Of a DNA stretch of 64,000 nucleotides, positions 10,827 through 20,973 are shown piece after piece. The DNA is taken from assembly GCF_002243345.2 (NCBI RefSeq), contig NZ_CP022655.2:4582001-4646000 (forward strand). Reading direction: 5' to 3'. The notes under the pieces are model-generated. The model had not been told where the DNA came from, did not search any database, and saw only the letters and a list, made by a program, of their open reading frames with translations. Both the position numbers and the translations under genes were made by a program. The DNA comes from Paenibacillus sp. RUD330 (GTDB lineage: Bacteria; Bacillota; Bacilli; Paenibacillales; Paenibacillaceae). How positions within the stretch are numbered: the stretch's first letter is position 1; each line of letters begins with the position of its first letter.

Positions 10827-12326
10827 TTACTTGGACGCTTTCCAGGCGTCGATCTGCTTCTGAACCTCGGCCATTACTTTGTCGAGACCGTTGTCCTTCA
10901 GCTTCTGGTTGATCTGGGCGATATTCTTCTCCGGATCAAGCGTCCCCGAGAACAGGCCGTTGTAGACGGCTTCCTTCGTATTCTTCAGGTTCGCGAGCTC
11001 GGTCGTAATGTTGCTCGTATCAAGCTGGAAGCCGAGCAGCGGAGCGTTGGTCGCGGATTCATTGAATTCCTTGAACTTTTCCCATTTGTCCGCAGGATCG
11101 GTCGGATTCAGGTAGGTCAGCATCATGTTGCCGACGGAGAATGCCGGGAAGCCGTAGCCGCTGTCCGGAATCGTCTCCTTCACCTGTTCGCCCGTTTTCT
11201 TGTAGTGCTTGCCTTCGATGCCGAAGTCGACGAGATTGATGAGATTCGCATCCGTATACAGCAGGTTCAGGAACTCCATCGCTTTTTCGGGATGCTTGGA
11301 TTTCGCATTAATGGCCTGCAGGGATCCTGCGACGGACCAGTTGAACGTGATCGGGTCCTGCATCGGCTTCGAAACGACTTCGTAGCCGGCGTCGGCGGAC
11401 CACAGGTTGTCGGCGTATGGCTGGGCGTCGGCGACGTCCACAAGCCATTTGCCCGTCTTGAAATAATCGCCCGCATCCTTCTGCGTCGCTACGTCGCGCG
11501 GCAGGTAGCCGGCTTCATAGTAGTTGTGCATTGTTTTGAGGTAGCTCATCGCTTCCGGCGTATCCCAGACGTTGATCAGCTTGTAATCCGTCGTTTTCAG
11601 CGGCACGCCGATGAACGGCAGATCGTTGACGGGAAGGTCGAAAGGCAGGAACTCCGCGATTTTGGCCGGAATCGGCGCAATGCCAGGTTCTTTTTCCTTG
11701 AACGTTTTGAGCAGCGGCTCCAGGTCGTCGATCGTGCGCACGTTGCTGATGTCCAGCCCCAGCTTGTCGACATACGTCTTGTTGAAGCGGAATACGCGCT
11801 GCTGCGGCAGCTCCTTGTTCGTCGGCACGCCGTAGTTGTGGCCGTTCACCTTGGTGCCTTCGAGGAAGGCCGGGTTCAGCGCTTGCTTGATGCCCGCGCC
11901 CTGCTTATCGAGCAGGCCGTCCAGCTCGTAGAAGGCGCCTTTTTTGGCGTTGGCGAAATAATCGTTGGCCCACGAGCTGGTGAAAGCGATGTCATAATTT
12001 TCGCCGGAGTTGATCGTAATCTGCATCTTTTGGGAATAATCGCCCCAGTCCAGCAGCTTCATCTCGACGGTGGCGTTGATCTTGTCTTTGATATACTTGT
12101 TGATCTCATCGTTGACGGCGGCCAGATCCTTCGGCGGCGTGCCGATTGTGTACCAGACCAGATTGACCGGCTTCTCGTCCGCCTTCGGCGTTCCGGCGTT
12201 GGCCGCCGCTCCGGCATTGCCCGCTGCGGCATTGCCGCCGCCGTTATTGTTATTGCCGCCGCCGGAGCAGCCGGCTACAGCTCCCGCCAGCAGAAGCAGG
12301 GCCATGATTCCCATCCGTTTCTTCAT
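10827..12326 (-). CDS. Sugar ABC transporter substrate-binding lipoprotein
   Basis: A 499-residue extracellular solute-binding protein of the LipO/YtcQ type common in Paenibacillus. It has a lipoprotein signal peptide with lipobox AGAVAGC and the lipidated Cys at 20. A low-complexity Gly/Asn/Ala linker (21-48) precedes the mature domain (NLVWYTIGTPPKDLAAVNDE, later ALNPAFLEGTKVNGHNYGVP), which ends in a DUF3502-like C-terminal region. It delivers an oligosaccharide or glycoside to the permeases encoded at 13075-14978. The ATG at 12326 follows GGGGGATGAGAAC. A 750-bp gap separates it from the permease genes, so it probably also has its own promoter. The sugar is unknown. Confidence 0.93.
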   Translation of the reverse strand: MKKRMGIMALLLLAGAVAGCSGGGNNNNGGGNAAAGNAGAAANAGTPKADEKPVNLVWYTIGTPPKDLAAVNDEINKYIKDKINATVEMKLLDWGDYSQKMQITINSGENYDIAFTSSWANDYFANAKKGAFYELDGLLDKQGAGIKQALNPAFLEGTKVNGHNYGVPTNKELPQQRVFRFNKTYVDKLGLDISNVRTIDDLEPLLKTFKEKEPGIAPIPAKIAEFLPFDLPVNDLPFIGVPLKTTDYKLINVWDTPEAMSYLKTMHNYYEAGYLPRDVATQKDAGDYFKTGKWLVDVADAQPYADNLWSADAGYEVVSKPMQDPITFNWSVAGSLQAINAKSKHPEKAMEFLNLLYTDANLINLVDFGIEGKHYKKTGEQVKETIPDSGYGFPAFSVGNMMLTYLNPTDPADKWEKFKEFNESATNAPLLGFQLDTSNITTELANLKNTKEAVYNGLFSGTLDPEKNIAQINQKLKDNGLDKVMAEVQKQIDAWKASK

Positions 12327-12454
12327 GTTCTCATCCCCCGTAAGTATAAGATTATCTATTCAGGGACGCCCGGTACAGAGGGCGGCCGCAAATATTCGTT
12401 GGATCGGTCGCTCCCCGGATTCCGGATCGCTTCTCCTCCGATCGGCGCCGGATC

Positions 12455-12637
12455 TATCGGACCTACGTTCCGCTATTTTGATGTTTTGGAGCGAATTCCG
12501 GAATTATCGGACATACGTTCCGCTATTTCCCTCTTTCAGCCCCTAAACCACCCTTTTTCGGACAAATAACGGATTTGATGTCCGATAAAAGTCCATTTCC
12601 GTTCGAATCGGCCAAATAACGGATCGTATGTCCGATA
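12455..12637. repeat. Compound REP-like element, copy A
   Basis: Four copies of a ~24-nt motif: direct at 12455-12479 and 12504-12528, inverted at 12564-12589 and 12614-12637, about 50 nt apart within each pair. The left copies read TATCGGACxTACGTTCCGCT; the right ones, reverse-complemented, read TATCGGACATACGATCCGTT (12564-12589 being more diverged). The two halves can fold into a long imperfect hairpin. The element has exactly the length and layout of the one at 20791-20973. Confidence 0.9.
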
Positions 12638-12892
12638 GCGGCCCGAAATTGGCTTGGCTAAGGCAGCCAGCCGGTCGGCGGATCAAGCTGCGGCAGTTGT
12701 CGCGCCAATTTTTGCGAAGCTGATCTGGCGGCGGCACGGGTCCGTGAAGCCGACGCTTGGCTGCGAGGCAGTGGCGGCGGCAGGTCCGTGAAGCCGGAGC
12801 GCGGGTGCTCGGCGACGGCGCTGTCTATGAGGCTGAACCGGATGCCCGGAGCAGGCGGAATGGCCGTGGAGAAGCGTGAGCGTTCGCCTTTA

Positions 12893-12941
12893 AAGGCCGG
12901 ATTTCCACCTTGACCTCAGCTAATCGAGAAAATCCGGCCTT
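12893..12941. repeat. Inverted repeat with 12-bp perfect arms
   Basis: AAGGCCGGATTT (12893-12904) and AAATCCGGCCTT (12930-12941) separated by 25 nt. There is no T run, so it is not a good terminator. It lies in the 750-bp gap inside the transporter locus. Confidence 0.7.
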
Positions 12942-12990
12942 AAACAGCGACCGGAACGGCCATCCGCCTGCGCAGCGGCATCACGCAGTG

Positions 12991-13062
12991 TTCAGCCTGC
13001 CGCGGAGCGGCGCCACTCGCCTTTAGCCTTACAGCAGCTTCAGCCTGCCGCGGAGCGGCGCC
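12991..13062. repeat. 24-bp perfect direct repeat
   Basis: TTCAGCCTGCCGCGGAGCGG plus CGCC occurs at 12991-13014 and again at 13039-13062, a 48-bp period, just past the stop of the permease gene. Each copy contains a GGCGCCGCTCC-type inverted core. Confidence 0.8.
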
Positions 13063-13074
13063 CTATCTGCCCGG

Positions 13075-14037
13075 TCAGTCCTTCACCGCCCCGATCGTCA
13101 GCCCCTGGATGAAATACCGCTGGAAGAACGGATAAGCCAGCACGATCGGGCCGGTGGCCAGCACGACCATCGCCATCCGCGACGTCTCCTGCGGCAGCGA
13201 GCGGATCATCTCCTTGCTCTGGCCGCTGCTCAGCAGCGACGAGTTCTGGATGATGAACTGCATGCTGTTCTGGATCCGCATCAGCAGCGCCTGCAGCGGA
13301 ACGAGCTTGTTGGAATCGATGTAGAGCAGCGCGTTGAACCAGTCGTTCCAGTAGCCCAGCGTGCTGAACAGGGCGATCGTCGCGAGTCCGGGCAGCGAGA
13401 TCGGCAGCACCAGGCTGAACAGCGCGCGGAACTCTCCCGCCCCGTCGATCTTGCCGGACTCGATGATGGGATCGGGAACCATCGTCTGGAAAAACGTGCG
13501 CAGCACGAGAATGTTGAAGGCGTTCATCGCCATCGGCAGGATGAGCGCCCACAGCGTATCCTTGAGGTGCAGGAACTGCGTCACGACGATGTACGTCGGC
13601 ACGAGGCCGCCGCTGAACAGCATCGTGAAGAAGGCCAGGAACGAGAAGAAGCCACGGTACTTGAAGCTTTTTCGGGACAATGCGTAGGCATACAGGGTCG
13701 TCATCACGACCGTAAGCAGCGTTCCCAGCACCGTGATGGTGATCGTGACGAGATAGGATTGCAGCAGCTGGTCGCCCGTTTGGAAAATGTAGCGGTAAGC
13801 GCTGAAGCTCAGGGCATCCGGAATGATCCGGTAGCCTACCTCCAGCAGCGACTGCTCCCTTGTCAGGGAAATGATGACGACGAAAATGAACGGGAACACG
13901 CAAGCCAGGGCGAAGCCCCCGGACACGAGATGGAAAACGGTGTTCCAGAACGGCGAGAGGCGGTGGAAGTCGCGGCTGCGGCGGCTTGTTCCGGCCGGCA
14001 CAGCGGCGGCGTCTGCGGGTTTTGGGATCATGCTCAT
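13075..14037 (-). CDS. Carbohydrate ABC transporter permease (YtcP/LplC type)
   Basis: A 320-residue inner-membrane permease of the MalG/YtcP class with six predicted helices. The ABC coupling loop (EAA-like motif) is at ~193-216 (ESGKIDGAGEFRALFSLVLP). It forms a heterodimer with the product of the preceding gene to import a sugar delivered by the lipoprotein at 10827-12326. The start ATG at 14037 overlaps the upstream stop as TGATG, which implies translational coupling. No ATPase gene is present; such Paenibacillus systems usually share an MsmK-type ATPase encoded elsewhere. Confidence 0.94.
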   Translation of the reverse strand: MSMIPKPADAAAVPAGTSRRSRDFHRLSPFWNTVFHLVSGGFALACVFPFIFVVIISLTREQSLLEVGYRIIPDALSFSAYRYIFQTGDQLLQSYLVTITITVLGTLLTVVMTTLYAYALSRKSFKYRGFFSFLAFFTMLFSGGLVPTYIVVTQFLHLKDTLWALILPMAMNAFNILVLRTFFQTMVPDPIIESGKIDGAGEFRALFSLVLPISLPGLATIALFSTLGYWNDWFNALLYIDSNKLVPLQALLMRIQNSMQFIIQNSSLLSSGQSKEMIRSLPQETSRMAMVVLATGPIVLAYPFFQRYFIQGLTIGAVKD

Positions 14038-14978
14038 CAGAACAACGCCTGCTCTTCATTGATTTTTTTGACGATCTTGTTCGTGGTCAGCACGAGGATC
14101 AGGCCGACAACGGACTGATACAGGCCTGCCGCGGTGCTCATGCCGAAGTCTCCCAGCACCTTCAGCGAGCGGTAGACGTACGTGTCGATGACGTTGGTGA
14201 CCGGGAACAGCGCTCCGGAATCGCGCGGAATCTGGAAGAACAAGCCGAAGTTCGCCCGGAAGATGCCGCCGACCGCCAGGATCGTGAGGATGATCATCAT
14301 CGGCCGGATGAGCGGCAGCGTGATGCGCAAGGTCTGCTGCCATTTGCTCGCTCCATCGATCATCGCCGCCTCGTAATAGGTTTTGTCGATGCCCGCGATG
14401 GCCGCCAGATAGATGACGCTGGAGTAGCCGACTCCCTTCCACAGGTTCATGAATACGAGGATGTACGGCCAATACTTGGGATCGGAATACCAGTCGATCG
14501 GCTGGACCCCGAGCGTGCCGAGCAGTTGGTTGACGACGCCCTTGTCCACGCTCAGGAAGCTGAACGTGAAGTAGCTGACGATGACCCAAGAGAGGAAATA
14601 AGGCATGAACATCGCCGTCTGGTACAGCTTGGCGAGCCGCTTCTGCGTCAGCTGGAAGAGCAGCAGCGCCATCGCGACCGAGCAGACGAGGCCAAGGACG
14701 ATGAACACGAGATTGTAGAGAACCGTGTTTCTCGTAATGATATAAGCGTCATGGGCTTTGAACAGGAATTCGAAGTTTTTGAATCCGACCCATTCCGAGC
14801 GGAAGATCGCTCCGAAAAATCCGCCGCCGAGATCGACGCGGAACTCCTTGAAAGCGAAGATCGCCCCCGGCATCGGCAGATAGCAGAACAGGATGAACCA
14901 GGCGGCGCCAGGCAGCACCATCAGGAGGAACGCGCCGTTCCGCCGAAGATTCCGGAATGCGGTTGCAAGCCTATTCAT
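14037..14978 (-). CDS. Carbohydrate ABC transporter permease (LplB type)
   Basis: A 313-residue permease of the LplB/UgpA class. Hydrophobic helices begin at FLLMVLPGAAWFILFCYLP, and the EAA coupling loop lies at ~203-225 (EAAMIDGASKWQQTLRITLP). It is the first gene of the transporter operon, with GGGGGACAACTC before ATG 14978. About 215 bp separate it from the divergent sensor kinase gene, whose regulator probably activates this promoter. It ends one base into the next permease gene. Confidence 0.95.
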   Translation of the reverse strand: MNRLATAFRNLRRNGAFLLMVLPGAAWFILFCYLPMPGAIFAFKEFRVDLGGGFFGAIFRSEWVGFKNFEFLFKAHDAYIITRNTVLYNLVFIVLGLVCSVAMALLLFQLTQKRLAKLYQTAMFMPYFLSWVIVSYFTFSFLSVDKGVVNQLLGTLGVQPIDWYSDPKYWPYILVFMNLWKGVGYSSVIYLAAIAGIDKTYYEAAMIDGASKWQQTLRITLPLIRPMMIILTILAVGGIFRANFGLFFQIPRDSGALFPVTNVIDTYVYRSLKVLGDFGMSTAAGLYQSVVGLILVLTTNKIVKKINEEQALF

Positions 14979-20790: not shown

Positions 20791-20973
20791 TACCGGACAT
20801 TGGTTCCGCTATTTTAGCCAATATGGCCTAAAAGCGGATTTATCGGACATTGGTTCCGCTATTCATCTGATTTAGCCTTGAATGGCGGATGAAACAGGCA
20901 AATAACGGATCGTATGTCCGATAAATCGAAAAAACCTGTCCGAGAGACCATTTAAAGGATCGTATGTCCGAAA
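20791..20973. repeat. Compound REP-like element, copy B
   Basis: Direct motif copies at 20791-20814 and 20840-20863, inverted copies at 20900-20923 and 20951-20973. The copy at 20900-20923 is identical base for base to the copy at 12614-12637 (24 of 24). Left copies have GTTCCGCT where right copies (reverse-complemented) have GATCCGTT, as in copy A. Total length is 183 nt in both elements although spacers differ, so these are two members of one dispersed family. Confidence 0.9.

Follow-up and report, generated by a model that had tools for sequence, protein, structure and literature searches.

The window, a stretch of 64,000 nucleotides (C1:4582001-4646000) of the complete 5.56-Mb chromosome of Paenibacillus sp. 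RUD330 (genome G000), which starts at dnaA, contains two copies of a compound repeat, termed here elements A and B. Element A is flanked by same-strand ABC-transporter genes, being downstream of a permease gene (13075-14037, minus strand) and upstream of a binding-protein gene (10827-12326, minus strand), and it splits an ABC sugar-transporter cluster (window positions 10827-14978) between these two genes. Element B is located between converging genes. A preliminary description of this DNA placed both copies downstream of genes, which needs qualification for A, downstream of one neighbour yet upstream of the other. The features are the following, with window coordinates:

12455-12637, no strand: element A, complete four-arm element (++--), offsets 50/57/50, with T-type (GTTCC) left arms and A-type (GATCC) right arms
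12455-12478 (core 12457-12478), plus strand: outer left arm L2 of A
12479-12506, no strand: left side spacer of A, with phased A/T blocks
12505-12528 (22-nt core 12507-12528), plus strand: inner left arm L1 of A
12529-12563, no strand: central spacer of A, 35 nt
12564-12587 (core 12564-12585), minus strand: inner right arm R1 of A
12586-12613, no strand: right side spacer of A
12614-12637 (core 12614-12635), minus strand: outer right arm R2 of A, identical to 20900-20923
20791-20973, no strand: element B, complete four-arm element (++--), offsets 50/57/50, polarity as in A
20791-20814 (core 20793-20814), plus strand: outer left arm L2 of B
20841-20864 (core 20843-20864), plus strand: inner left arm L1 of B
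20865-20899, no strand: central spacer of B, 35 nt
20900-20923 (core 20900-20921), minus strand: inner right arm R1 of B
20950-20973 (core 20950-20971), minus strand: outer right arm R2 of B, degenerate, with 3 mismatches

The number of matches to the arm pattern expected by chance within the 64-kb window is zero. As first described, the two copies share one layout and are equal in length, with offsets of 50/57/50 in both, and one right-arm motif is indeed identical at 24 of 24 positions between them (12614-12637 in A and 20900-20923 in B). The reported difference between GTTCC in the left arms and GATCC in the right arms is also real, and corresponds to the polarity of the element. The spacers of A and B, previously taken to be unrelated, cannot be aligned with each other but have in common A/T-rich blocks in helical phase.

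Copy number, geometry and constraint

In the whole RUD330 genome the arm TCGGACATNNGWTCCGYTATTT gave 168-173 matches, compared with 0-1 for the reversed control, and 37 elements were identified, each opening with two or more forward arms and closing with two or more in reverse orientation. The family that had been supposed from two copies extends genome-wide, with an inverted layout of two plus two or more arms and a preferred spacing of about 50 nt, so that the preliminary description was not refuted by the condition it had set, namely genome-wide copies lacking such a layout or spacing. Elements are about 180 bp in length and their arms are directional sites of about 22 nt; the same-side arm offset is normally 50-51 nt and spans 50-52 nt, and 36 of the 37 elements have a central offset of 57 nt, the remaining one having 56 nt. 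Several elements carry two arms on one side and four to six on the other. In the sister species P. humicus NBRC 102415 (G003) 35 elements were found, arranged alike except at contig ends. Several contigs of that assembly (C8, C21, C34, C76, C79 and C86) start or end inside or beside an element, so that the elements appear to break short-read assemblies. Inner arms starting ACGGACAT in these two genomes often adjoin a T-run (TTAAATTTTTTT); on the right side their side spacing is 51 and not 50 in 13 out of 13 cases, and on the left side it is 51 in 6 out of 10.

The central half-motif pair is present, with a patchy distribution, in 63 of 395 Paenibacillales genomes, and 25 of the 395 hold at least four elements and are called element-rich below. 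Among GTDB species genomes, the pair also occurs in Rossellomorea, Halalkalibacter, Salibacterium, Virgibacillus, Lentibacillus, Solibacillus, Evansella, Cohnella and others. In other Bacilli genera the central half-motifs are 46 nt apart in 99 of 125 cases, which equals the same central offset, and the side offset is mostly 51. The inner arm half TTCCGYTATT is constant across genomes and the outer half is genome-specific, the arm being a full palindrome in some genomes. In Bacillus litorisediminis (loci L221, L249 and L292) the central pair is repeated at intervals of ~192 nt, in runs of up to seven, as if whole elements were repeated in tandem.

An element occupies the orthologous P. humicus place at 36 of the 37 RUD330 sites, a count that includes one site known solely as a contig break at an element end, one matched by its spacer and surroundings and not by flank alignment, and one degenerate copy. 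The exception is the site at 1791237, where the neighbouring DNA is rearranged. This sharing of sites between sister species indicates that there is no present mobility in RUD330. Over 31 orthologous pairs the arms are 95.1% identical, with changes mostly at known variable positions. Spacer identity is 80.5%; 83 of 93 spacers have the same length in both species and most of the remainder differ by 1 nt. In the flanks (the next 60 nt on each side) identity is 69% even when gaps are allowed, at 5.1 gap openings per 100 nt. Judging from this sequence comparison, arms and spacing are under selection in the lineage of RUD330 and P. humicus. The loci at C1:1.34-1.41 Mb and 4.78 Mb are >99% identical to P. 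humicus, most others being 80-96% identical, which suggests recent gene transfer or recombination.

Base composition by column revealed that the spacers consist of A/T-rich blocks (up to 98% A/T) alternating with G/C-rich blocks, with an A/T-block period of 10.25-10.5 in central spacers and of 9.75 in side spacers. Phasing at ~10 bp was equalled in 0 of 2000 shuffles for either RUD330 or P. humicus, the same phasing was detected in other Bacilli (114 central and 247 side spacers, 0 of 500 shuffles), and the signal fades beyond the outer arms. Static curvature is only slightly raised, with end-to-end ratios of 0.889/0.881 versus 0.905/0.902 after shuffling in a wedge model, so strong static DNA bending was discarded and the A/T blocks appear to set a rotational phase along which a protein would wrap or bend the DNA. 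Central spacers of two types occur side by side in the RUD330 genome: TATYnnnATAnnGATA, often accompanied by GTGAAC (type 1), and AAAA...TTTT (type 2).

A predicted nuclease family linked to the elements

In an all-against-all comparison of the reading frames near elements in other Bacilli, a single reading-frame family was found that always adjoins an element. The RUD330 member (C1:1122597-1123322, minus strand) has 216 amino acids, and P. humicus also has a member. In an AlphaFold2 model of the RUD330 protein (mean pLDDT 76), an endonuclease core is accompanied by a winged helix at the C-terminus. The N-terminal domain aligns structurally with the catalytic domain of the homing endonuclease I-Bth0305I (3r3p; Z 11.0, 2.4 Å over 96 residues) and with 3hrl (Z 10.2), which places the predicted catalytic-domain fold among the EDxHD/Vsr-like endonucleases. 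Residues E95, D109, E122 and H129 are invariant in A1, a pattern that only suggests a putative nuclease activity. Models from Pfam, NCBIfam, PADLOC and PHROG all fall short of their cut-offs on the family; Pfam MTES_1575 matches single members, below its own cut-off. The dN/dS of 0.08 between RUD330 and P. humicus indicates purifying selection on the nuclease. Phages and IMG/VR yielded no match and plasmids one distant match (28% identity), and these were set aside as a source of the nuclease.

Nuclease gene loci were scanned within 1 kb of the gene using the geometry alone, without the motif. A four-arm element was found downstream of the gene in 49 of 57 loci and upstream in just 4 of 58 (p 4e-19), with false positives of ~3% (about 4 hits in 119 unrelated windows, at GC-rich or tandem repeats), and hence the same ends do not bracket the enzyme gene as in a MITE-type layout. 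The median distance from the stop codon to the downstream element is 63 nt. Most scan positives carry the arm signature GGA...TCCG.TATT; where a genome lacks the canonical motif, as G007 does, the nuclease gene is still followed by an element, which has other arms, and in G002 the element match at the gene locus scores under the cut. The presence of an element copy right behind the nuclease gene suggests a REPIN-like partnership of dispersed sites and enzyme. The element is polar: of 15 gene-linked elements, 12 have GATCC in the outermost arm on the gene-proximal side and 13 have GTTCC in the outermost arm on the distal side (p 7e-5, an optimistic value, given that some of the 15 loci are related). 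A and B have this polarity too.

Similarity between arms follows similarity between the proteins (Mantel r 0.54, 0 of 5000 permutations), also when only pairs below 75% identity are considered (r 0.51). G182 encodes two nuclease paralogues that are 53% identical and differ in their arms. Each has an orthologue in G189 (97% and 90% identity) whose arms are the same as its own, and the dispersed elements of both genomes resemble the arms of one of the two paralogues. Taken together, a cognate pairing of nuclease and four-arm element is well supported. The family is encoded in all 25 element-rich genomes versus 301 of the 395 Paenibacillales genomes overall (p 9e-4); in some genomes with many elements (G363, G322, G240 and G226) the best copy of the gene has internal stops, and in many genomes the nuclease gene is present and dispersed elements of the canonical motif are absent.

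With respect to dispersal, elements at separate loci of G309, G363 and G240 share the whole unit including the spacers, at roughly 73-88% identity, with some of these loci hundreds of kilobases apart and their flanks differing, which indicates that the element is copied as a unit. In the tightest copy pairs homology stops within 2-15 nt of the outer arms, and in other pairs it extends past them by ~50 nt or more. Around the dispersed copies of these three genomes we found no clear or consistent target-site duplication, and no clean empty site was seen. The dispersed copies retrieved from G182 and G189 (L339-L351) are embedded in longer repeat units, near-identical and about 400 nt in length, which in many cases finish with a hairpin like that of an intrinsic terminator, and in G189 three tandem copies alternate with a piece resembling the 3' part of a group II intron.

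Proposed function and alternative readings

With slightly better than even confidence, we read each of the 37 elements, A and B included, as a non-coding cognate site for a dedicated endonuclease, within a REPIN-like nuclease-element system. The wider proposal, on which our judgement is evenly balanced, is that they belong to an unrecognised class of Bacilli elements in which a Vsr-fold winged-helix endonuclease recognises a wrapped four-site element of ~180 bp and spreads it through intergenic space, and that the system parallels REPIN/RAYT by convergence, its enzyme being unrelated. Starting from the linkage, covariation, constraint, geometry, phasing and predicted fold, we infer binding, wrapping, cutting and mobility as follows. 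The winged helix would bind the four arms, with four or more monomers acting as a multimer, and this multimer would bend or wrap the ~180 bp of DNA around itself. The Vsr-like domain could then cut the element or a target and start its copying, in a homing- or transposition-like way, into new intergenic sites, so the dispersed elements would be non-autonomous and, like REPINs, would travel as passengers of the nuclease gene. In the RUD330 lineage the elements would no longer move and may be kept as resident, constrained sites.

The main rival is that the host has domesticated the system, in which case the protein would bind the elements as an architectural or regulatory factor and the elements would be kept for a benefit to the cell and not for their spread, in a role that may cover chromosome organisation, supercoil handling or gene regulation. 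We consider this unlikely as the principal explanation, though it fits the static set of the RUD330 lineage and is not exclusive with copying by the nuclease. Besides the near-total sharing of sites with P. humicus, the strong constraint and the helical phase of the A/T blocks, as in wrapped DNA, it is favoured by the placement of the copies in RUD330: all are intergenic (14 convergent, 17 tandem and 1 divergent site), 5 of the 37 elements lie in the terminus half (p 4e-6, an ori-proximal bias), none was found in the 2-Mb zone around the presumed terminus (C1:1.93-3.93 Mb), and the replication fork reaches the A-type (GATCC) side before the other in 19 of 24 polar elements (19 to 5, p 0.007). 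However, the ori-proximal bias is not evident by eye in G226 or G363, the replication polarity is weaker in three other genomes, the elements are patchy among congeners and genera, and a nuclease domain with conserved E, D, E and H would be odd in a purely architectural protein. A chromosome-domain function of the Noc or RacA kind was rejected, the ori bias being strong in RUD330 and by eye absent in those two genomes. Relative to the transcription of tandem neighbours in RUD330, polarity showed no trend (5 to 3).

It is also conceivable, though improbable, that nuclease expression is controlled through the gene's own downstream element, the dispersed copies being titrating decoys or recombination by-products. 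Such autoregulation would account for the consistent position of the element 3' of the nuclease gene, at a median of 63 nt past the stop codon, but it leaves unexplained up to 37 dispersed, constrained copies at orthologous positions, and elements are also found behind unrelated genes.

A role at the RNA level, with transcribed hairpins that end or stabilise mRNAs as REP or BOX do, seems to us more improbable still, despite the location of nearly all copies on the 3' side of genes and the imperfect to perfect palindromes formed by the arms in some genomes. Same-side arms share the variable dinucleotide in 45 of 67 cases versus 23 expected, whereas left and right arms share it in 10 of 67 versus 20.8 expected (p 0.0002), and the W and Y arm positions follow the same trend; in a broad Bacilli set the same-side excess is small (0.729 versus 0.707, p 0.048). 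Since arms on opposite sides agree less often than expected by chance, selection does not act on a long hairpin, and with pairing in the central spacer near chance (0.45 versus 0.40 expected) both the long RNA hairpin and the cruciform were rejected. Moreover, arrays of two versus six arms cannot all pair, a covariance-model search of the element against Rfam gave no match near the gathering score, and A/T phasing at 10 bp is a DNA feature. From the options offered in the preliminary description, the dispersed compound unit with conserved geometry and the dedicated enzyme stand, the protein-binding array probably does, and the long hairpin falls.

The mobilisation by a RAYT transposase that it also proposed, for which the conserved inverted ends and the spacer variable in sequence but fixed in length speak, as in REPINs (Bertels & Rainey 2011, PMC3116915), is very improbable, given that PF01797 has 0 matches in the complete RUD330 genome (which refutes it there, barring recent RAYT loss), no Y1 transposase was found in RUD330 or P. 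humicus, RAYT-type genes show no association with the elements across the 395 genomes (11 of 25 element-rich genomes versus 157 of 395 overall), and the elements have four arms instead of two and no GTAG tag.

Comparison with known systems

The reason why bacteria keep REP-like repeats together with linked enzymes is an old question. If the nuclease and its elements are a second, independent system with an unrelated enzyme, then the REP-like arrangement evolved more than once, and the question could be put to the test in Gram-positive bacteria that are amenable to genetics. The element itself looks like a natural blueprint for a large protein-DNA assembly with precise spacing, and the nuclease family, encoded in three quarters of the sampled Paenibacillales genomes, has no matching Pfam or NCBIfam family.

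The likeness to REPIN/RAYT consists of dispersed, intergenic, non-coding units with inverted ends, whose genome-specific end sequences follow a linked enzyme gene. The differences are that the enzyme here is a predicted Vsr-like endonuclease with a winged helix instead of an HUH Y1 transposase, that four sites at helical spacing (two plus two arms and no doublet) are combined with phased A/T blocks, and that left and right arms avoid each other in place of hairpin compensation. As in the BIME/REP sequences of enterobacteria, short oriented palindromic motifs form arrays on the 3' sides of genes, but here they are ordered block-wise (++--) and not alternating, in a rigid 50/57/50 geometry and with no RAYT; furthermore, the GTAG and CGTC superfamilies of REP carry a tetranucleotide tag at one end of the palindrome (PMC3733652), and the arm consensus TATCGGACATNNGWTCCGYTATTT has neither tag.

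I-Bth0305I and the EDxHD/Vsr-like proteins (DUF559, MTES_1575) share the predicted catalytic-domain fold (Z 11.0 and 10.2), whereas the family described here has an extra C-terminal winged helix, a chromosomal stand-alone gene and associated multi-copy four-arm elements. TnsA of Tn7 likewise joins a restriction-endonuclease fold and a winged helix in one small protein, but its Foldseek match to the nuclease is weak (1f1z, E 0.05). BOX elements are modular intergenic repeats with a variable number of internal modules of ~45-50 nt, which recalls the four-arm element, but unlike it they have three different modules, and we know of no nuclease linked to them. BOX of Streptococcus pneumoniae (PMC3049150) has neither sequence nor layout identity with the four-arm element.

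In open-licence papers we found no description of the arm sequences or of the nuclease pairing, which is weak evidence since most subscription journals lie outside that literature. The nearest functional analogue among known kinds is REPIN/RAYT, from which the system departs in its four arms and in having no RAYT, no hairpin compensation and no GTAG tag.
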